DNA from: Deltaproteobacteria bacterium
GTDB lineage: Bacteria > Myxococcota_A > JAADFL01
NCBI GenBank assembly: GCA_013152945.1
Contig: JAADFL010000095.1
Span: 1 to 63,613, forward strand
Direction: 5' to 3'
DNA: 63,613 bases
The notes beneath the pieces were generated by a model. The model ran no database searches and was not told where the DNA came from. It saw nothing but the letters and a program-made list of their open reading frames with translations. Made by a program: the position numbers and the translations under genes. Positions 3,101 to 37,771 of this stretch are shown piece by piece; the stretch's first letter is position 1; each line of letters starts with the position of its first letter.

Positions 3101-3418
3101 GGATTCTCCCTTCCGGATTCTCCCTTTCCCGATTCTCCCTTCCGGATTCTCCCTTCCGTGGTTGATTTTCCGGGGGCCGGATATAGACGTGATATCAATA
3201 AAATACAAGGAGTGAAAAAACCGGGACTCTGCACGATATGATTGCCGGGCGTGTCACCCGTTTTTTTAGGGAATGCTTTAGGTGGAAAGCCGGCCTGGTC
3301 CGGCAGACAAAAACACAAATTGTCAGGATTGAATCTCGCATGGGCGGTTCGCGGACCACCCCAACAACTCCATGAAATGACAGCAAGTTCTTGATGCCTT
3401 GAAAATCAACCTGGGTGC
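3101..3418 (+). repeat. dispersed ~300-bp hairpin repeat, copy A
   Basis: It starts with short tandem GGATTCTCCCTTCC-type units, then a conserved body, a hairpin near 3342-3361 (GGGCGGTTCGC opposite a near-complement), the block CTCCATGAAATGACAGCA, and ends in AATCAACCTGGGTG. It is closely similar by eye to copies at 6905-7258 and 8626-8914, all in the same orientation, with a shorter relative at 37584-37771. It lies between the 5'-truncated TPR/DUF2325 remnant and the cassette array. It has no transposase and resembles a non-autonomous repeat. Confidence 0.8.
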
Positions 3419-3454
3419 CCGTGGTTGGACCATTCATAAAGTTATCCTCCTTAA
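3419..3454 (-). other. possible start of a third gene cassette, interrupted by repeat copy A
   Basis: Just past the attC site in gene direction there is a strong ribosome binding site (AAGGAGG, 3446-3452) and an ATG at 3437. This is the arrangement expected for the next cassette's gene. After about seven codons the frame enters repeat copy A. Because the tails of the repeat copies vary, I cannot fix the exact junction. Confidence 0.35.
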
Positions 3455-3527
3455 GCCGAACGACAAAGCTCACCTGCCGCTATGGAGCGCTAGCGGAATA
3501 GCGGTCAGGTGGAGCGCATTGTTAGCC
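3455..3527 (-). repeat. attC: attC recombination site of the OLD-nuclease cassette
   Basis: Read on the minus strand the 73-bp site opens with GGCTAAC (R'', 3527-3521) and closes with GTTCGGC (R', 3461-3455). Between them ACCTGACCGCTAT pairs with ATAGCGGCAGGT, leaving a single unpaired A, the extrahelical base diagnostic of attC sites. The TAA stop of the upstream gene falls inside R'', as in classic integron cassettes. Confidence 0.85.
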
Positions 3528-5633
3528 ATTGAATATACAATCAAATATTATTTCTAGTTCTGGATGATCTCCACTTTCAGTATGAATCAACTCGCAAAGA
3601 CCAACAACCTGTTCTCTATTGCTGACTTTGTTGCAAAACGACTGAGCTTTTGTTGGTTTGTCTTTTCCTGTTACATCTGGTGGATAATAATCTTCAATTG
3701 TACCTTTTTCTAGAATTTGTATATTGTTGTTACGCAACTCATTTAATAAGGCTCTTTTTTTCTCCAATACATCACTTCGAGATGAGTCTTTAAGAATTTC
3801 TATTCTGGGTTCAGTTTTTTCAAACTTGAAAAATTCTTCCAGTGCTTGGATTTGTGCCTCAACATCTCCCTTTTTCCTTGCTTCTCTTATGCTATTAAAA
3901 ATTTTTTTCCTATACTCACGCTGCAATTCTTCTTTTAATAGCCTGTTGCTTGGCTCTGGTTTTAAATTTTCCTCATCAATTATTTTATCAACTATGCTAA
4001 GTAGTTCTTCACGTAATTTCTTTGCTTTTTCGGATGGTTCGAGTTTATTAAAACCACGAATGATAACATCTAGGTCTGATATTAAATGAACATTAGTTTC
4101 GAATAATTTAAAAAAATTTCTATACCGCTGAAAACTTCCTTTTCCGTTTATTTTCACCAAACTCGTGCTTTTTCCTTTGAAATCCCAATGCTGATTAAGT
4201 AATTTAGCAACATGAGGAAAGACAATTAACTCGCTATCTCCTTCTACCAACACGATATTACTAGAGAAGAAAGCGTGATTACTTGTTTCAAAGGAAATCA
4301 GCTGAAACTTATCTTTTTCCGATAGTTGATTAAGATCAATATAAAGGCATTCTCCGTAGGGTTTCGGAACACCTTCTCTCTTGTCTTTTTTCTTGATTTT
4401 AATGAATGTTTTTGTTTGATCAGCAGCAAAAAATAATGGAGAATGAGTTGTTACAACTACTTGATGTCTTTTTGAAATTATTGATAAGGCTTCAAATAAG
4501 ATATTCTGAGCTTTTGGGTGAAGATAAAGCTCAGGCTCTTCGAAAAGGAATAAGAATTTATCTTTTGTATTCTTTTTAGCTTCTTCCTCCCGCTTCCATG
4601 TAGCATCTTGCGACAGTTGCACATAGCTTCTAAGTATTGTAAAAGCAATTGCCCTTTTAAAGCCATCCCCTTTGTGGTCAATGGGACCTCTTACTCCATC
4701 ATCAGCGATTAAATTAGCATTGGACAACACCGTTTTGATTTCTGGTGGTGGAATTTCAAGCTCTACTGTGACATTTTGAAATGTTTCTTGAAGATTATCT
4801 TGGATGGTTTTTTCAATAGCCACTACTCTATCCATTCTTTCATCTAAAATGGTTCCATCATCTTGTGTTACGCGATTTAGTTTTTTTCTTAAATTTTCGA
4901 ATGTTTCCTTCGCTTCTGTGAGATCATCTTCAATTACATCGAGTAAAATATTTAATAGTTTCCCAAAAGACGCACTTTCTTTTGTTTTTAAATCATCTGC
5001 TAAATCTTTAACAGCTGGTATGTAAATAGGTTCTGGCAGTAATGCCCTAATACTATTATCAATTCCTGTCTCCAAAGGAATATCAACTTCCTCTAGTTGC
5101 TCTGGTGGTAATGTTTCAATAAACTCATCAAGAAGCTCTTTTGCTCTTTTCTGGGTATTAATTTCATCTACTTTGCCTGCTATTTCAGGATAAAAGGTTC
5201 TGATAGTATCCTTCAGCTCCTTCCCTTTTTTACCTTTCAATGCTTCATTAATCTTTTCTTTTCTGAAGTTTAATTCTTTAGGAGCATGCGTAACTATCCT
5301 CAGTTTTGAAGTTCCATCAGTAGAGTATCGCCTTGCTAATTTTATTCGACCATCATCAACAAATTTTTCAATTTTTCTACGATGTTCTTCTCCAAGTTTC
5401 GATAATACTTCTTCAGTTATCTCACAAAGTTCAACTGTAATAAGAATATCCGCCTCCGGATCATAAAATTCATTTTTTGATAACTTTGTTCCCCGAATAA
5501 AAAGGAGCAAGCACTGAAGCAAGGAGGATTTCCCTGCATTATTTTCCCCGACCACACAGACAAAACTTGAAATTGGAGAATGTGTGTCTCGTAATCCCTT
5601 ATAGTTTATTACTTTGATTCCACTTATTTTCAT
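3522..5633 (-). CDS. OLD-family ATP-dependent endonuclease (ABC-type ATPase plus TOPRIM)
   Basis: The protein has 703 residues. It has an N-terminal P-loop ATPase of the RecF/SMC-like ABC type: Walker A GENNAGKSS at 29-37, Walker B FLFEEPELYLHP near 362 and the switch motif THSPLFF near 394, with a helical coiled insertion at about 90-290. A TOPRIM domain follows, with NIVLVEGDSE near 464 and a DLD pair near 521. OLD nucleases of this layout cut DNA and often act in phage defence. It is encoded as an integron cassette: the TAA stop lies in the R'' box of its attC, and 26 bp separate it from the upstream cassette's ORF. It has no adjacent UvrD-like helicase, so it is not a canonical Gabija pair. 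The C-terminal ~150 residues are charged and not assigned. Its codon usage is AT-rich, in line with recent acquisition. Confidence 0.9.
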   Translation of the reverse strand: MKISGIKVINYKGLRDTHSPISSFVCVVGENNAGKSSLLQCLLLFIRGTKLSKNEFYDPEADILITVELCEITEEVLSKLGEEHRRKIEKFVDDGRIKLARRYSTDGTSKLRIVTHAPKELNFRKEKINEALKGKKGKELKDTIRTFYPEIAGKVDEINTQKRAKELLDEFIETLPPEQLEEVDIPLETGIDNSIRALLPEPIYIPAVKDLADDLKTKESASFGKLLNILLDVIEDDLTEAKETFENLRKKLNRVTQDDGTILDERMDRVVAIEKTIQDNLQETFQNVTVELEIPPPEIKTVLSNANLIADDGVRGPIDHKGDGFKRAIAFTILRSYVQLSQDATWKREEEAKKNTKDKFLFLFEEPELYLHPKAQNILFEALSIISKRHQVVVTTHSPLFFAADQTKTFIKIKKKDKREGVPKPYGECLYIDLNQLSEKDKFQLISFETSNHAFFSSNIVLVEGDSELIVFPHVAKLLNQHWDFKGKSTSLVKINGKGSFQRYRNFFKLFETNVHLISDLDVIIRGFNKLEPSEKAKKLREELLSIVDKIIDEENLKPEPSNRLLKEELQREYRKKIFNSIREARKKGDVEAQIQALEEFFKFEKTEPRIEILKDSSRSDVLEKKRALLNELRNNNIQILEKGTIEDYYPPDVTGKDKPTKAQSFCNKVSNREQVVGLCELIHTESGDHPELEIIFDCIFNG

Positions 5634-5643
5634 TTTTTCTCCT

Positions 5644-5728
5644 GGCTAACGTCATGGGTCACTTGCCGACATGACGCAAGCCCGAAGGGTGCAGCGGAAT
5701 GGCGGTCAAGTGCACCCGCTTGTTAGCA
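5644..5728 (-). repeat. attC: attC recombination site between the two defence cassettes
   Basis: On the minus strand this 85-bp site runs from TGCTAAC (5728-5722) to GTTAGCC (5650-5644). Inner arms CACTTGACCG and CGGCAAGTG pair with one extrahelical A, the same feature as in the other site. The loop region differs in length and sequence. The upstream reading frame continues through the site and ends inside it. Confidence 0.88.
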
Positions 5729-6615
5729 TTTTTTCTTTCTTTTATTTGAGAAAGTGCAAGCAACTTAGCAACTTCAATCGCAATATGTGCGCTGAAATGA
5801 CATGATGGCGTATTAAAATTAGGTAAGTAAACCTTTGCTGAGGCATCACCATATATATGATTCCTCACTTTACATTCAACCCATGTCCAGATCTCTGAAT
5901 CTCTCTCATTCTCATTCAAAAAGATTATACTAAATCCACTTGATTTTGTTTCGGTCATTAACTTTGCAACTTCCTGAAAAACGGGATTGTTCTTATAATC
6001 TGCTTCTATCTCGACATTAAGAAACCAGTCCTCTATAATTGTCCTTTTTTGAAAGTGGTCGAGTTGGTCAAATTCTTCTTCAGAATAGCCGCAGTCAGTG
6101 GGGTTAAATCCTAAATTAATTGCTCTAATCAATTCTTGTGTAGATAAAACTTCACCAATTAGGGCGTCTGCTATAGTTAAATAAACAGAGCCAGATAATC
6201 CCTTAAATTGTTCCGAGCCTAAAATAAAATAAGGAAATGACGATCCGTGAGCAACTCGGAGTTTAAGTTCTAAAAAATCTCGTCTCCCCTTTCTATCTAC
6301 CTTTTCTTCAGAAATTATATAATTTGTTCCTACATTAAAACCTTGCAGTAGACCATCAAATTCTACACAGGCGATTGGTTTATCTTTTTTATCGCAGATA
6401 ACAAAGTCAATACTTGTCTTTTTGAGTTTGTCATATTCTTCTTCCGTAATTTTGAATATTCTCCCATTTTCATCGATAAGCTCATCTCTGGCAGTAAATA
6501 CATTAAGAAAGGGGATATTGTGATAAATATTTAATTTTTGCCCCCAAGTTTTCTGCAATTTTCGATAATATTTCTTTTCTTCGTTGCTACCGAAAACTGT
6601 TTTGCGAACACCCAT
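5659..6615 (-). CDS. cassette-encoded PD-(D/E)XK-like (DUF2726-like) nuclease candidate
   Basis: A soluble protein of 318 residues. Residues 11-35 (NEEKKYYRKL onwards) and the core IDFVICDKKDKPIACVEFDG (68-87) resemble DUF2726/PD-(D/E)XK domains: Asp70, Glu85-x-Asp87 and a basic stretch KVDRKGRRDF at 105-114 are candidate active-site residues. The C-terminal half has alternating beta and helix character and is not assigned. The last ~20 residues (KRVHLTAIPLHPSGL...) are encoded by the attC itself, so the original protein probably ended near residue 298 and the tail is a consequence of cassette structure. ATG at 6615 lies 24 bp inside the cassette start. It precedes the OLD nuclease gene in the same array; whether the two act together is unknown. 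Confidence 0.6.
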   Translation of the reverse strand: MGVRKTVFGSNEEKKYYRKLQKTWGQKLNIYHNIPFLNVFTARDELIDENGRIFKITEEEYDKLKKTSIDFVICDKKDKPIACVEFDGLLQGFNVGTNYIISEEKVDRKGRRDFLELKLRVAHGSSFPYFILGSEQFKGLSGSVYLTIADALIGEVLSTQELIRAINLGFNPTDCGYSEEEFDQLDHFQKRTIIEDWFLNVEIEADYKNNPVFQEVAKLMTETKSSGFSIIFLNENERDSEIWTWVECKVRNHIYGDASAKVYLPNFNTPSCHFSAHIAIEVAKLLALSQIKERKNANKRVHLTAIPLHPSGLRHVGK

Positions 6616-6841
6616 TTTAATTTACACCTAATATTTTATGCTAACTCCTTATTCTACCCAATCTCCGTTTATCCGGTACGAGCCCTTGTCAATCCAGGAA
6701 ACTAGACATCTTTATATAATTCCCATCCCCCATAGTCAAAGGATAATACAAGGAAAAATCACTTGACCAGCATCAGGTTGGCAATTACATAACATGAATA
6801 TTTTGGTGTTATGGAGATTGTGTATAATCAGGATGGGAATT

Positions 6842-7021
6842 ATGAATCGAGCCGAGAGAGAACTTGATCGGAAACTTGGTGTTTATGCTGAGCAATTCTC
6901 CTTTCCGAGCGATTCCCCCTTCCAGATTCTCCCTTCCGTGGTTGATTTTCCGGGGGCCGGATATAGCCGTGATATCAACAAAATACAAGGAGTGAAAAAA
7001 TCAGGACTCTGCACGATATGA
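6842..7021 (+). pseudogene. short gene fragment running into repeat copy B
   Basis: ATG at 6842, preceded by a purine-rich GGATGGGAATT, opens MNRAERELDRKLGVYAEQF, a plausible charged helical N-terminus. From about 6905 the frame is encoded by the dispersed repeat and ends at 7021. I read this as the first ~20 codons of a lost gene cut off by repeat insertion or recombination. The family cannot be told from so few residues. Confidence 0.35.
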
Positions 7022-7258
7022 TTGTGCCGGACGCGTCAGGCTGTTTTTAACAGGCCGTTTTAGGTGGAAAGCCGGCCTGGTCCGGCAGGCAGAAATACAA
7101 ATTGTCTGTACTGAATCTCGCATGGGCGGTTCGCGGACCGCCCCTACAACTCCATGAAATGACAGCATGTTCTTGATGCTTTGAAAATCAACCTGGGTGA
7201 GGGTACCCGTACCAGGGTACCCGTACCGAATCAACCTGGGTGAGGGTACCCGTACCGA
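6905..7258 (+). repeat. dispersed hairpin repeat, copy B, with minisatellite tail
   Basis: Same body as copy A, including GTGGTTGATTTTCC, the ATACAAGGAGTGAAAAAA block, the hairpin at about 7124-7144 and AATCAACCTGGGTG. The tail from about 7198 repeats GGTACCCGTACC and AATCAACCTGGGTG units. It separates the cassette array and the 6842 fragment from the XRE regulator gene. Confidence 0.8.
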
Positions 7259-7297
7259 GCTCCTCACATGGGTACTATAGTTTTATTAGGGAGCCAA

Positions 7298-7326
7298 TTT
7301 GCATTTCATGTTCCACTTGCTATAAT
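7298..7326 (+). promoter_or_regulatory. sigma-70-type promoter candidate for the XRE/methylase-remnant/HepT-MntA genes
   Basis: TTTGCA (7298-7303) and a perfect TATAAT (7321-7326) are 17 bp apart and lie about 60 bp upstream of the XRE gene ATG at 7388. Transcription would cover the following four genes, which are spaced by 3 bp or overlap. Confidence 0.45.
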
Positions 7327-7387
7327 ACTCGCTACTGTATTTGCAGAAAGGTTCTTGGTCTGCCATCAAGCAGTGAGGTGCGATTAC

Positions 7388-7615
7388 ATGATTTCGCGTA
7401 AACGGGATTATCCGGCTTTGCTTAAGGAAGTCCGAAGACAACTTGCCTTGAGTCAGGAAGACCTGGCTCGGGAGCTCGGCGTCAGTTACACCACCATCAA
7501 CCGGTGGGAGAACGGACAATCACGCCCTTCAAAAATGGGCCAGGTCCTGTTTGACTCATTCTGCGAAAAGATGACTGAACAAGGCAACCTGGAGTTGCAT
7601 AAAAGCCTCAAATAA
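7388..7615 (+). CDS. small XRE-family helix-turn-helix regulator
   Basis: The protein is 75 residues from ATG 7388, which has a GTGAGG-type ribosome site nine bases upstream; an earlier in-frame ATG at 7268 would add an unrelated hydrophobic leader and is less likely. Residues 10-50 form a Cro/CI HTH: LALSQEDLARELGVSYTTIN then RWENGQSRPSK. It probably binds its own promoter, which has a good TATAAT just upstream. The next gene begins 3 bp after the stop and looks like a remnant of an N-6 DNA methylase, so the regulator may be left over from a restriction-modification operon, or may now control the HepT/MntA pair. Confidence 0.85.
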   Translation: MISRKRDYPALLKEVRRQLALSQEDLARELGVSYTTINRWENGQSRPSKMGQVLFDSFCEKMTEQGNLELHKSLK

Positions 7616-7618
7616 CAG

Positions 7619-7849
7619 GTGGCGAATATGGCTCGCAAGGCAAAACCCAATCGAACGAAACAAGGGAATACCAGAACCCTGCCTGCGCCGCAAAGCGAAG
7701 TGACGCGGCAGGCAGGCGGCGTGCCCTTCAAAGAAAAGATGGCCGAACTATCTGCAGAACTTTATGAGCAGATGGCCGAGGCTGAGGAACTCGACAAGGT
7801 CATTAAAAGAATCTACAAAACCGGGATTTGGAGCTTAATCCATGAGTAA
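7619..7849 (+). pseudogene. 76-codon remnant of a type I N-6 DNA methylase (internal deletion)
   Basis: GTG start at 7619. The first ~30 residues are a basic, proline-rich leader like those before N-6 methylase domains (ARKAKPNRTKQGNTRTLPAP). Residues 35-72 read PFKEKMAELSAELYEQMAEA and then EELDKVIKR, a helix like the extreme C-terminus of HsdM-type methylases. The whole catalytic core (N-terminal helical domain and the NPPY region) is absent. A single large in-frame deletion would give this product. It overlaps the HepT start by 8 bp and follows the HTH gene by 3 bp, the context in which such methylases usually occur. The remaining peptide could still be made; the call rests on short similarity from memory. 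Confidence 0.45.
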
Positions 7850-8258
7850 CTCAGATGAAATCCGCTGGCGACAGCGCCTGGCGAATTTTAGCAAGGCTAT
7901 GGCGCAACTGGAGGCTGCATGCGACCTGGTGGACTACTCCGATCTTGAACGCGCCGGGCTGGTCCAGACCTTCGAGTTCTCCTTTGAGCTCGGATGGAAA
8001 ACGTTGAAAGACCTGCTTTTTTACGAAGGCTACGACGAGAAGACACCACGGGACGTCATCCGCCGGGCTTTCGAGGCCGGCTATCTCGCTGAAGAGGACA
8101 CCGAGACCGCGCTCGATGCGCTGGATAAACGCAATCTCCTCAGCCATACCTACGATGAAGAGATTGCTGAGGAAGCTGTAGAACTCATCAAGGAAAGGTA
8201 CGGCCCCATGTTGCGCCGTGTCCGAGATAAACTGCTGGAGAAGCAGGACCGAACATGA
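7842..8258 (+). CDS. hepT: HepT-like HEPN toxin (HI0074 family)
   Basis: A helical protein of 138 residues. RNLLSHTYD (around 113-121) contains the Rx4H motif followed by Y, the RNase/AMPylation-target site of HEPN toxins paired with MNT antitoxins. EFSFELGWKTLKDLLFYEG and TPRDVIRRAFEAGYL are typical of the HI0074 nucleotidyltransferase-substrate-binding family. The stop overlaps the next gene's ATG by 4 bp, standard for hepT-mntA pairs. In known pairs HepT cleaves RNA and MntA silences it by adding AMP to the HEPN tyrosine; the sequence here keeps both motifs. The base composition is richer in GC than the cassettes to the left, so it was probably acquired separately. Confidence 0.88.
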   Translation: MSNSDEIRWRQRLANFSKAMAQLEAACDLVDYSDLERAGLVQTFEFSFELGWKTLKDLLFYEGYDEKTPRDVIRRAFEAGYLAEEDTETALDALDKRNLLSHTYDEEIAEEAVELIKERYGPMLRRVRDKLLEKQDRT

Positions 8259-8662
8259 ACGATGGGCTGAAAGACAGGCACCGCCGGGCGATCATCGACA
8301 TCCTTGCCACGCATCACCGCGTGGAGCGGGCGGTACTGTTCGGCTCCCGCGCGATGGGTACCTTTACCGCCGCTTCCGATGTGGATATTGCCCTGTTCGG
8401 CGACAGCCTGACCCTCGACGACCAGGCACGCCTTGCCAGAAAAATCGACGAACTGACCATGCCCCAGCGCGTGGATCTGCTCCGCTACCACACCATCAAG
8501 AACAAGAAGCTGCGTGAGCATATCCGAAAACATGGCGTGGAGTGGTTCAGGCGTGACAAGCCTGGTAAGACGTTATCCAGTGGTGGGGATGGGGGTGTAG
8601 GTGGGGGCAATGGTTTCCCTACAAGGGATTCTCCCTTTCCGGATTCTCCTTTCCGTGGTTGA
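8255..8662 (+). CDS. mntA: MntA-like minimal nucleotidyltransferase antitoxin (HI0073 family)
   Basis: A protein of 135 residues. GSRAMGTFTAASDVDIAL (about 29-46) is a perfect GSx10DxD nucleotidyltransferase motif, and the third catalytic acidic residue is likely Asp in PQRVDLLRY. MNT proteins of this size modify and neutralise the adjacent HEPN toxin. The last ~35 residues after the DKPGKT segment are glycine-rich and read into repeat copy C, so the natural C-terminus has been replaced by repeat-derived sequence; the catalytic domain is intact. It forms a two-gene operon with hepT through an ATGA overlap. Confidence 0.88.
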   Translation: MNDGLKDRHRRAIIDILATHHRVERAVLFGSRAMGTFTAASDVDIALFGDSLTLDDQARLARKIDELTMPQRVDLLRYHTIKNKKLREHIRKHGVEWFRRDKPGKTLSSGGDGGVGGGNGFPTRDSPFPDSPFRG

Positions 8663-8914
8663 TTTTCCGAAGGCCGGATATAGGCGTGATATCAACGAAA
8701 TACAAGGAGTGAAAAAAACAGGACTCTGCACGATATGATTGTCTGGCGTGTCAGGCTGTTTTCAACAGGCCGCTTTAGGTGGAAAGCCGGCCTGGTCCGG
8801 CAGACGAAAATACAAATTGTCTGTATTGAATCTCGCATGGGCGGTTCGCTAACCGCCCCTACAACTCCATGAAATGACAGCAAGTTCTTGATGCCTTGAA
8901 ATCAACCTGGGTGA
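8626..8914 (+). repeat. dispersed hairpin repeat, copy C
   Basis: Same body as copies A and B, with the hairpin GGGCGGTTCGC/TAACCGCCC at about 8839-8859 and the AATCAACCTGGGTG end. It provides the last codons of mntA and separates the toxin-antitoxin pair from the endonuclease gene. No further gene is seen between 8663 and 9025. Confidence 0.8.
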
Positions 8915-9025
8915 GGTGGCTGGAGTTGGAAGGCTGGGTTCGGGTGGGGTAGCTGTGGGATTCGTGAAATTCAATCTGCTGCCAACCACTTGACCAATTC
9001 AATTCATCAGGTCATTCTTGGCCAC

Positions 9026-10138
9026 ATGAATATGAAAAAACACCTGCTTTTCGTCGCATTATTCAGTCTCGCGTCCTGGTCCGGCTGCATTCTGGAAAAT
9101 CAGTCTTCCTCTTTGTACGTCAGGATCACCTCGCCTTCCGATAACTCGACCGTTTCCGAAAGCCCTGTGGAAATCAGGGGAAATGTATCATCTCTGATTA
9201 CAGATGTTTGGGTTCAGGAAAATCCCGCCAAGCTCGAAAGCGGCGAGTTCAGCGCCCCGGCTTGGCTCGAGCCCGGTAAAAACGTCGTCAGTGTAAAGGG
9301 ATGGTCAAGAGATGGCCGTACAGTTTCCGATTCGGTAGTCATCTATTTTCATTCCTCGGGTAATGACGCCGATCTGGATACAGAGTCTTTTGAAGACGCC
9401 TTGGATTCAGACGGGCCGGAAATCAGGGATGGACCAGAATACGAAACCATCGAACATGAACCCTTTGCCGGTTGCGAAGGAACGGTTCGACTCGAACCAA
9501 AGTGCAGTTCCCTACAAGGTCTGACGAACCAGGACCTCATCAGCAAGCTGCGTGATATGGTTTCGAGGGGTTACAAGTCACTCGGCTATGACACGGCCCG
9601 TTCCAGGATGTACCAGGACATCGACCTGGTGGATGATAAGGTTCAGGGTGTGTACACCGGGCAATGGATCTTTACAGGCGGAGGCATGCCCGATCCCAAG
9701 AAAATGAACTGCGAGCACACGTGGCCCCAAAGCAAGGGAGCATCCAGCGAACCGGCCCACAGCGACCTGCACCACCTCTTCCCGACAATTCCAAGCGCCA
9801 ACAGCGCCAGGTCCAACCATGAATTCGGGTGGGTTACAGACTCTGACCCGGCCTGGGCCCAGGGTGGAAGCAAGCTCGGTTTCGACAGCACAGGCGAACT
9901 CGTGTTCGAGGTCAGGGACCCGCATAAGGGCGACACGGCCAGGGCCATATTCTATTTTTCAGTAAGGTACGACTACCATGTATCGTTCAAACAGGAAAGT
10001 GCATTAAGGGAATGGCACTTCCTGGATCCGCCGGATGACTATGAAAGGGCCAGAAACGATGCCATAGAAGTTTACCAGCACAACCGGAATCCTTTTGTCG
10101 ATTGTCCGAGCCTGGTATGTTTTATCGATGATTTCTAG
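9026..10138 (+). CDS. lipoprotein endonuclease I (EndA/NucM family) with an Ig-like N-domain
   Basis: From ATG 9026 the product is about 370 residues. A signal peptide KKHLLFVALFSLASWSGC ends in a lipobox, so the mature protein is a lipoprotein. Next comes a beta domain (VRITSPSDNSTVSESPVEIR) of the bacterial Ig-like type, an acidic linker, then the nuclease: NCEHTWPQS near residue 229 and SDLHHLFPT near 249 are the beta-beta-alpha metal site of endonuclease I (the His of EHTW is the general base). This family degrades DNA outside the cytoplasm for nutrients or exclusion. An upstream in-frame ATG at 8990 would bury the signal peptide and is unlikely. Its 3' end overlaps the start of the methyltransferase gene by 11 bp if that gene begins at 10128. 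Confidence 0.88.
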   Translation: MNMKKHLLFVALFSLASWSGCILENQSSSLYVRITSPSDNSTVSESPVEIRGNVSSLITDVWVQENPAKLESGEFSAPAWLEPGKNVVSVKGWSRDGRTVSDSVVIYFHSSGNDADLDTESFEDALDSDGPEIRDGPEYETIEHEPFAGCEGTVRLEPKCSSLQGLTNQDLISKLRDMVSRGYKSLGYDTARSRMYQDIDLVDDKVQGVYTGQWIFTGGGMPDPKKMNCEHTWPQSKGASSEPAHSDLHHLFPTIPSANSARSNHEFGWVTDSDPAWAQGGSKLGFDSTGELVFEVRDPHKGDTARAIFYFSVRYDYHVSFKQESALREWHFLDPPDDYERARNDAIEVYQHNRNPFVDCPSLVCFIDDF

Positions 10139-11426
10139 GCCGGGCACAAAGAAACCTTTGGTACGGCAAAACTTGGAAACACGCGTTCACACTCTTGTAA
10201 CGAAACGAACGGTTGGAGATGCCCGGACAGGCAATATCCTTGTCAAGGGTGATTGTCTGGCCGGAATGAGGGCACTGGAAGACAGGCTCATGGAAAAGAT
10301 CCAACTCGTGTACGCGGATCCCCCGTACAATACCCGGAGAAAGGGACGCGACTACGATGACGACATGGACCCCGGCAAATGGCTCACCATGCTGGAACAA
10401 AGGGCGGTTGCCTGCAGGTCCCTGCTCAAGCCCACGGGTTGGTTTTTCCTTCACCTGGATGCGAACGGACTTGCAAGCGCAAAGCTCATGATGGATCGCA
10501 TAATGGGAGAGGAAAACTTCACCTTTCTCGTGACATGGGAACGTACGCCAAAGTTGACCTTTCTCGGGCAAGGCGCATCCCCTATTGTGCGAAACACGGA
10601 GTTCATACTGGTTTATTCAAAAAACCGTAAAAAGAGAACGAAACTGAAAAGGCTTACCAGGGACATGGAGGCCACGCGAAAGGTATTGAGACAGTACAAC
10701 CTGGAAGTAGTCAGGGACAAGGGCCGCCTCTTGATTGAGGAAGACGGCCCGTCCGGCAAGCCGTTGTCCGTGTTCGAACACGACAATTTCTCGGTGAAGA
10801 GCATTTCCCATGATAAACGGCTTGCATGCTTCGATAGGCTGTACCAGTCCACAAGGATTAATCCATCAAGCACCTTGCAGTCCAGGCTCGCCAAGAGGTC
10901 CAGGCAAGGCCATCTCTATAGTGTCAGGTACACCCCTGACAGGGGCAAAAGAGCAGGCAGGGAAATAGAGGTCCTGCTGTTCAATAACAGGCAACTATGG
11001 CCTGCTGCTGAAAACGCTTTCATAAGACATGGAAAAATTTTCAGGCGCGTGGACATTTCCACGCTCTGGACGAATGAAGAGATATCCGCAGTAGGCATTT
11101 CGAGCCAGGGCGGGGTCAGGCTCATTCGCGGCAAGAAACCAGAGGAACTGCTGGAGCGAATCATCCTGCTTGCAACCAATCCCGGCGACCATGTAATGGA
11201 CCCGTTTGCAGGCAGTGGTACAACCCCGGCAGTAGCACAGAAACTTGGAAGAAAATGGATTGCATTCGAGAAATCCGATTCAGTGGAAAAATTGATTTTA
11301 CCGAGGCTGAAGAGAGTTGTGACGGGCCAAGATAAAAGCGGCGTTATGTACAGAAATCAGGAATACGCCGAGCAATGCTTCGATTATATTGATTTACCCG
11401 GGGAGCCTCTCCCGGGCAAGCCCTGA
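10128..11426 (+). CDS. Mod-type (beta-class) DNA adenine methyltransferase, orphan
   Basis: The protein is about 430 residues. VYADPPYNT near residue 80 is motif IV (DPPY) and DPFAGSGTT near 362 is the SAM-binding motif I; the IV-before-I order defines beta-class N6-adenine methyltransferases such as type III Mod subunits. TGNILVKGDCL and the surrounding fold match Mod N-termini, and the central ~200 residues would form the target-recognition region. No Res helicase-nuclease lies beside it, so it is an orphan methylase or part of an incomplete system. The start is uncertain: ATG 10128 overlaps the endonuclease gene and lacks a strong ribosome site. A GC-rich hairpin (CCCGGGG / CTCCCGGG, about 11397-11417) sits at its 3' end, facing the convergent exporter gene. 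Confidence 0.85.
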   Translation: MISRPGTKKPLVRQNLETRVHTLVTKRTVGDARTGNILVKGDCLAGMRALEDRLMEKIQLVYADPPYNTRRKGRDYDDDMDPGKWLTMLEQRAVACRSLLKPTGWFFLHLDANGLASAKLMMDRIMGEENFTFLVTWERTPKLTFLGQGASPIVRNTEFILVYSKNRKKRTKLKRLTRDMEATRKVLRQYNLEVVRDKGRLLIEEDGPSGKPLSVFEHDNFSVKSISHDKRLACFDRLYQSTRINPSSTLQSRLAKRSRQGHLYSVRYTPDRGKRAGREIEVLLFNNRQLWPAAENAFIRHGKIFRRVDISTLWTNEEISAVGISSQGGVRLIRGKKPEELLERIILLATNPGDHVMDPFAGSGTTPAVAQKLGRKWIAFEKSDSVEKLILPRLKRVVTGQDKSGVMYRNQEYAEQCFDYIDLPGEPLPGKP

Positions 11427-37355: not shown

Positions 37356-37558
37356 ATTAAAATGTCAGTAGGAAAGGGATCCGTCCCCTATGGACAACCG
37401 CATTATAGGGACATCGTCCTTAATTCAATCATGCCCAATTAAATCAAATAAAACCAATTCCCCAAAAGCCCCAAAGGGGCGGAAATAAAATAGCCTGGGG
37501 CAATGCCCCAGGAATTATTGGTACCAAACGATCCCCCCTCGCCCGCTCCGCGGGAAAG
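37356..37558 (+). repeat. direct repeat, right copy, flanking the giant surface-protein gene
   Basis: Second copy of the 25362-25560 repeat with a short insertion after AAAGGGGCGG. Same orientation, so recombination between copies would excise the 11.3-kb gene with its promoter. It is followed within 30 bp by hairpin-repeat copy D. Confidence 0.92.
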
Positions 37559-37583
37559 AGCGATTTAGGGGAAGAGGACCGCG

Positions 37584-37771
37584 GAAAGCCTACCTCATCA
37601 AGGAGACAAAAAAATAATTTGTTTGGCTTGAATCTCGCAGGGGCGGTTCGCGAACCACCCCTACAACCTCATGAAATGACGGCGTATTTTGGGCACCCAA
37701 AAAATCAACCTGGGTGGGGAGGGTCCGGGTGGGGAGGGTCCGATCAACCTGGGTGGGGAGGGTCCCATCTT
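37584..37771 (+). repeat. dispersed hairpin repeat, copy D (partial)
   Basis: Retains GGAAAGCC, the GAATCTCGCA block, the hairpin GGGCGGTTCGCGAACCACCC at about 37641-37660, CCTACAACCTCATGAAATGAC and a tail of AATCAACCTGGGTGGGGAGGG repeats. The left part of the copies A-C body is missing. It is the only copy found outside the first 9 kb. Confidence 0.75.

Follow-up and report, generated by a model that had tools for sequence, protein, structure and literature searches.

The stretch analysed here, termed the window, comprises 63,613 bp of contig JAADFL010000095.1 (C95) from GenBank assembly GCA_013152945.1, a deltaproteobacterial genome of 4.84 Mb in 218 contigs that is 94% complete. Near its beginning, the window carries a gene for an OLD-family ATPase-TOPRIM nuclease next to a gene for a DUF2726-domain protein. 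An earlier inspection of the letters alone, called the sequence-only reading below, had described the two as integron cassettes with one gene each and the same direction, and they are indeed real units, spanning 6644-5650 and 5649-3461. On the reverse strand the locus would be read as a truncated, divergently oriented integrase gene (intI), attI with a cassette promoter (Pc), cassette 1, attC1, cassette 2, attC2 and the stub of a third cassette. The individual features are as follows.

6810..6907, forward strand: intI remnant, consisting of the promoter region and the first ~22 codons (ATG at 6842, MNRAERELDRKLGVYAEQFSF...), divergent from the cassettes and truncated by a dispersed repeat
6711..6739, reverse strand: putative Pc, aimed at the cassettes, with -35 TTGACT (6739-6734), a 17-nt spacer and -10 TATAAA (6716-6711)
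6642..6666, reverse strand: attI core, GGAGATTGGGTAGAATAAGGAG^TTA, with the crossover between 6645 and 6644
5650..6644, reverse strand: cassette 1 (DUF2726), first position of the array, with the attI crossover G^TTAGCA (6645^6644) as left limit and the right limit in R' of attC1
5659..6615, reverse strand: DUF2726-domain gene, 318 aa, a possible PD-(D/E)XK-type nuclease, whose C-terminal end is encoded by attC1
5728-5644, reverse strand: attC1, recombination site of the DUF2726 cassette, with R'' TGCTAAC, R' GTTAGCC and an extrahelical A
3461..5649, reverse strand: cassette 2 (OLD), from the crossover in attC1 to that in attC2, with the same limits in homologous cassettes elsewhere
3522..5633, reverse strand: OLD-family ATPase-TOPRIM nuclease gene, 703 aa, with its stop codon inside R'' of attC2
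3527-3455, reverse strand: attC2, recombination site of the OLD cassette, with R'' GGCTAAC (3527-3521), R' GTTCGGC (3461-3455) and an extrahelical A
3425..3460, reverse strand: third-cassette stub (TTCGGCTTAAGGAGGATAACTTTATGAATGG...), in which R' of attC2 is followed by a ribosome-binding site and an ATG before the repeat cuts it off
6919..7199, forward strand: dispersed repeat of ~270 bp that truncates intI
3137..3417, forward strand: directly oriented second repeat copy, which closes the array at its opposite end

We are highly confident that an integron with the conventional layout has decayed at this locus, which holds two gene cassettes, one for the OLD nuclease and one for a possible second nuclease, and was deprived of its recombinase gene by the repeat. 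Each cassette would once have entered by IntI-catalysed recombination between attI and attC, proceeding via the bottom strand of the folded attC site with the crossover at G^TT, and both genes would be transcribed from Pc.

The two attC sites occupy exactly the places on the reverse strand where the sequence-only reading had put them, attC2 with the sequence GGCTAACAATGCGCTCCACCTGACCGCTATTCCGCTAGCGCTCCATAGCGGCAGGTGAGCTTTGTCGTTCGGC (3527-3455) and attC1 with the sequence TGCTAACAAGCGGGTGCACTTGACCGCC...CGGCAAGTGACCCATGACGTTAGCC (5728-5644). R'' and R' boxes are present at both ends of each, and the 5' L arm contains a single extrahelical A in either case (CACCTG-A-CCGCTAT/ATAGCGGCAGGTG in attC2, CACTTG-A-CCG/CGGCAAGTG in attC1). 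The TAA of the OLD gene (3524-3522) lies inside R'' and the 318-aa frame of cassette 1 reads through most of attC1, both in agreement with what had been proposed. Upon folding, both sites beat shuffled sequence on the gene strand (z -2.1 and -2.7) as well as on the other strand (z -2.0 and -4.1).

Strict de novo scans gave an uneven picture, one returning neither of the window sites and another only attC2, and covariance models were used instead. Because circularity was to be avoided, the model was trained on 13 attC sites from other organisms and none from this genome; 12 of these were taken from fetched loci and one was the site of a class 1 cassette (aadA). It was built with the canonical stem and a column for the extrahelical base, and the stem covariation score of the training set was 0.281 compared with 0.136 in shuffles and at most 0.075 when the stem was slid. 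With this model, attC2 (47.0 bits, E 7e-10) and attC1 (25.6 bits, E 3e-4) ranked first and second in the window, the next-best place in the 63.6 kb reaching 9.3 bits. In the whole genome attC2 ranked first and attC1 fifth (E 0.025), and the five hits, which further include C73 8453-8525, C89 222-293 and C66 47180-47248, all adjoin small single-gene units. Another model, derived from four attC sites of this genome, recovers just these four and was not used as independent evidence for that reason. Judged by boxes, paired L arms with an extrahelical base and hairpin formation, both sites are genuine attC sites. That they are ordinary hairpins, i.e., terminators or repetitive extragenic palindrome (REP)-like repeats that follow genes by chance, might be suspected from the modest genome-wide rank of one site and the abundance of dispersed repeats in the region, but it is hardly credible in view of the independent attC model, the extrahelical A, the boxes at both ends, the like sites beside other single genes of the genome and the fact that homologous cassettes of other phyla are bounded exactly at G^TT, and is refuted by the result with the foreign model, provided that the training sites were themselves attC.

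The sequence-only reading had seen no integrase and had advised a search for intI upstream of 6645. It was right in so far as no complete integrase was found, but a truncated, divergent intI start, attI and the putative Pc adjoin the array at 6642-~6907. The search upstream of 6645 does meet the beginning of intI at 6842-~6907, in a gene that is broken and has ~22 codons left. When 6641-6916 (276 bases) was used as query, a second place on contig C73, likewise an intI remnant, matched with 81% over the whole head, and the right part of the query matched the start of the long intI gene on C73 (75% identity over 83 bp, E 1.5e-8), the protein starts being MNRAERELDRKLGVYAEQFSF and MNLAHRSFERILDGYAEFLRK, respectively. 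The ~270-bp repeat cuts the C73 remnant at the same place as intI in the window.

Four such heads could be aligned, one in the window, two on C73 and one on C66, and in all of them GAGATTGGGTAGAA is invariant. In three of the four it is followed by AAG(G/A)AG and then the crossover, which is G^TT in the window and in the C73 remnant and GTC on C66; in the fourth, located on C73, a reversed attC directly abuts the attI core. The genes behind attI differ, encoding the DUF2726 protein in the window, a Card1-like protein on C73 and a GNAT protein on C66, and different cassettes behind a common attI are the expected product of recombination between attI and attC. With its crossover G^TT at the point where cassettes enter, the core in the window has the properties of an attI site. 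On the cassette strand of all four heads, TTGAC[AT]-N17-TATA occurs 65-75 bp before the core, a motif that appears in 0.02-0.2% of mononucleotide shuffles of each head. It stands where Pc is expected and probably represents this promoter, although a generic promoter scan, in keeping with a -10 hexamer (TATAAA) ending in A, gave no report of it. Since the motif holds the expected position in all four heads, cassette 1 is considered to be the first behind the putative promoter.

A profile search of the genome with TIGR02249 returned one convincing IntI, located on C73 (219.7 bits, model positions 2-214 of 315). Alignment with IntI proteins of relatives revealed that nothing remains beyond ...HLAKVREWHKADL, so that H-x-x-R box and catalytic tyrosine are both missing. 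Further candidates on C38 and C107 were rejected, as these are weak matches that look XerC/D-like because the integron-specific middle is missing. The TIGR02249 search thus found no complete integrase in the 94%-complete assembly; every intI copy found with the four attI heads is truncated, and a functional integron, which requires a complete integrase in the genome, was not recovered. As the C73 IntI is devoid of its catalytic C-terminus, the array would now be frozen unless an integrase acts in trans or is encoded in the missing ~6% of the assembly. Apart from those in the window, attC-bounded cassettes of this genome comprise a MazF-type pair and the Card1-like gene (C73), a GNAT gene (C66) and a small unknown gene (C89).

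The arrangement on C73 (L006) deserves separate description. At 7253-9600 two integron heads face each other around the single Card1-like cassette, whose attC R' runs straight into the second attI at TTCTACCC; this could reflect recombination of the cassette with a secondary attI site in reverse orientation, or else an inverted duplication. The Card1-like gene itself (7461-8436, forward strand) is interrupted by a stop (7898/7900), leaving two frames, and matches the Card1 endonuclease weakly (0.076). On the same contig, a MazF/PemK-type toxin gene together with a putative antitoxin gene (6263-6996, reverse strand) forms an attC-ended cassette, which stands behind another head-like junction, CTAACAAGGAG^TTCTGCC.

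In the classification of IntegronFinder, two or more attC sites without intI are defined as CALIN (PMC9024848), and by its attC sites and the lack of an intact intI the locus falls under this term. It is therefore appropriate to ask whether the attC-bounded cassettes came without an integron platform, for instance through off-target insertion or because a block of cassettes was transposed, a proposal that also agrees with the failure to find a complete integrase in the genome. We consider it improbable, since an attI-like core, accompanied by Pc and a divergent intI start, marks the exact beginning of the array, as in the layout of an integron; this head largely refutes the idea already. The locus thus resembles CALIN and degraded integrons in having at least two attC sites and no functional integrase and differs from them in keeping attI, Pc and the intI start.

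Scanning 84,980 species genomes for relatives of the OLD protein led to 80 loci, and in seven other genomes the relatives are bounded by attC or by R'/R'' boxes (L083, L084, L086, L091, L094, L107 and L157). As in the window, the OLD gene starts shortly after G^TTAGCC and terminates at or shortly before GGCTAAC in L083 (Phycisphaerae), L084 (Syntrophaceae) and L086 (Verrucomicrobia). In L091 (Nitrospira), L094 (KSB1) and two Chloroflexi loci (L107 and L157) attC is located just downstream of the OLD relative. L085, L087, L088 and most of the other relatives were also considered and were left as non-cassette genes, as they are not accompanied by attC. Including this genome, the cassette is thus carried by assemblies assigned to Planctomycetota, Thermodesulfobacteriota, Verrucomicrobiota, Nitrospirota, KSB1 and Chloroflexota. 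L083, a Planctomycetota assembly, and L084, a Thermodesulfobacteriota assembly, share 98.6% identity over 2,172 bp, from the G of G^TTAGCC to inside attC, with unrelated sequence on either side; as both are metagenome assemblies, contamination has to be considered here. On the OLD tree, about six gains or losses of the cassette state have to be assumed, which agrees with genes having entered and left integrons repeatedly. From these boundaries and their distribution we infer that the OLD gene family probably moves as a cassette between phyla. In a second branch of the OLD tree, a member from Alcanivorax sp. 1008 (L114, 3797-8572) is enclosed by two attC-like sites at a distance of 4.7 kb and may be part of a multi-gene cassette.

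Several observations weigh against reading the locus as a decayed integron with a travelling OLD cassette. The assembly is fragmented (218 contigs, 94%), and an intact intI could sit in the missing part. Taken by itself, attC1 is moderate in the genome-wide search (E 0.025), and its R'' box (TGCTAAC) as well as the R' box of attC2 (GTTCGGC) are one to two bases off the consensus. Close relatives of the OLD protein in Polaromonas, Acidovorax and Bdellovibrionales are not cassettes, so that this OLD family has several lifestyles, of which carriage in cassettes is one.

The product of cassette 2 is readily placed. It matches AAA_15 (2.7e-38) and OLD-like_TOPRIM (4.9e-16) in Pfam, thus combining an N-terminal ABC-type ATPase with a TOPRIM nuclease domain that has the acidic residues typical of the OLD family, and its best match in PADLOC is Old (2e-98), many GajA models following at 1e-34 or weaker. 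The closest solved structure is the Class 1 OLD of Thermus scotoductus (6p74, 7.8e-11). Conserved among relatives are Walker A (GENNAGKS), Walker B (LFLFEEPE), E464/E468, D520/D522 and T645-x-E647, a pattern that resembles the one described for Class 1 enzymes (PMC7049728). Class 1 OLDs are defined by having neither a helicase nor a retron as neighbour (PMC10568477), and neither a UvrD-type helicase nor a retron is found next to the OLD gene, which is flanked by the DUF2726 gene on one side and by the cassette stub and the repeat on the other. By domains and neighbourhood it is a stand-alone, Class 1-type OLD. With P2 Old, T. scotoductus OLD and E. coli YbjD/OldB it shares the single gene, the ABC-type ATPase and TOPRIM domains, the conserved acidic residues and the lack of an adjoining helicase or retron partner; it differs from them in residing in an integron cassette and in being ~150-175 residues longer than TsOLD (528) and YbjD (552). 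GajA of Gabija, a Class 2 OLD, has the same ATPase-TOPRIM architecture, but the window contains no neighbouring GajB-type UvrD helicase and the GajA match is much weaker than that to Old. By homology, the protein would act as a stand-alone effector in which the ATPase domain gates the TOPRIM nuclease, and the latter would attack nucleic acid once phage infection is sensed.

For the product of cassette 1 the situation is less clear. DUF2726 is matched above cut-off at 3.3e-6 by residues 10-88, which contain IDFVICD...VEFDG; from general knowledge of the clan, we take this to be compatible with a PD-(D/E)XK-type site. PADLOC yielded no match at E<=1, NCBIfam none either and the PDB no convincing one, and the structure model is unusable (predicted local distance difference test, pLDDT, 35). 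Relatives were detected neither in the 376 other genomes of the phylum nor among viruses or plasmids, and a genome search with the 5' end of the cassette found the gene to be single-copy. The protein is possibly a second nuclease, and an anti-phage function is at most weakly indicated. The designation "defence-type nucleases" in the sequence-only reading hence fits OLD, a recognisable ATPase-TOPRIM nuclease, better than the DUF2726 protein, for which there is one weak Pfam match and none in PADLOC.

Even with an integron-borne array, the genes need not serve phage defence: OLD might have a housekeeping role and the DUF2726 protein might act in DNA repair or in maintenance of the element. A non-defence OLD-family ATPase is known in archaeal Cran1, which functions in the cell cycle (PMC12796447), direct evidence for broad defence by Class 1 OLDs is scant (PMC10568477), and the DUF2726 protein has no PADLOC counterpart. 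On the other hand, Old is the top PADLOC match at 2e-98, anti-phage phenotypes are described for P2 Old and for E. coli YbjD, in the latter with a dispensable TOPRIM domain (PMC10568477, PMC13261556), and a patchy occurrence in different phyla agrees with an accessory trait. We therefore regard a role outside defence as unlikely, though as the most serious of the alternatives, and infer an anti-phage function for OLD from its relatives. The broader proposal that Class 1-type OLDs form a recurrent integron-borne defence module, passing between phyla as an intact cassette, appears evenly balanced on the comparisons made here.

That integrons carry phage-defence genes is already known in principle. 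As cited in PMC12444791 and PMC12409362, studies of 2025 described chromosomal integrons of Vibrio (Darracq; Getz) and mobile integrons (Kieffer) as reservoirs of anti-phage genes, and a tendency towards streamlined size is reported for defence systems carried by integrons (PMC12409362). The array described here agrees in its small cassettes with their own attC, in anti-phage-type genes and in a first cassette behind Pc; it differs in being a small broken array whose 2.2-kb OLD cassette encodes a full-size protein of 703 aa. The suggestion that integrons move anti-phage genes is supported for OLD, a candidate anti-phage gene that is a mobile cassette elsewhere too, but its principle is no longer new. 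Integrons are mentioned neither in the OLD review (PMC10568477) nor in the YbjD paper (PMC13261556), and what may be new is that the OLD cassette has spread across phyla.

The repeat that bounds the array is abundant, with ~46 matches in the genome, many of them to its 3' 137 bp only. It resembles a miniature inverted-repeat transposable element (MITE) with short terminal inverted repeats (GGTTGATTTT...AAAATCAACC), truncates intI in two of the integron heads and has a copy ~200 bp away from a third. Further matches in the window are at 8634-8913 and 37583-37716. An Acido-Lenti-1 RNA (RF01687) at 37467-37512 (reverse strand) is situated ~70 bp from a partial repeat copy, and the same RNA occurs at about this distance from partial copies in at least four other places (L018, L020, L022 and L027); it may be part of the repeat or travel with it. 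Beyond the head, the window encodes a toxin-antitoxin-like pair of a nucleotidyltransferase-substrate-binding/HepT-like protein and an MNT-type nucleotidyltransferase (7842-8662, forward strand), preceded by a helix-turn-helix (HTH) gene, and a Type III-like DNA methyltransferase (10095-11426) with no visible restriction partner.

For the organism, the genome presents several broken integron heads in which promoter and attI are preserved, whereas all intI copies that were found are truncated. For the OLD family, a candidate anti-phage gene in the form of a mobile cassette provides a clean and testable example outside Vibrio and clinical integrons, which recurs in distant phyla and is delimited precisely at the point of recombination, and OLD cassettes constitute a ready candidate set for phage assays. 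Cassette carriage offers a plausible route of spread for Class 1 OLD genes, whose anti-phage role remains debated, and passage of the cassette between phyla, if true, would explain the distribution of an otherwise isolated and patchy gene.

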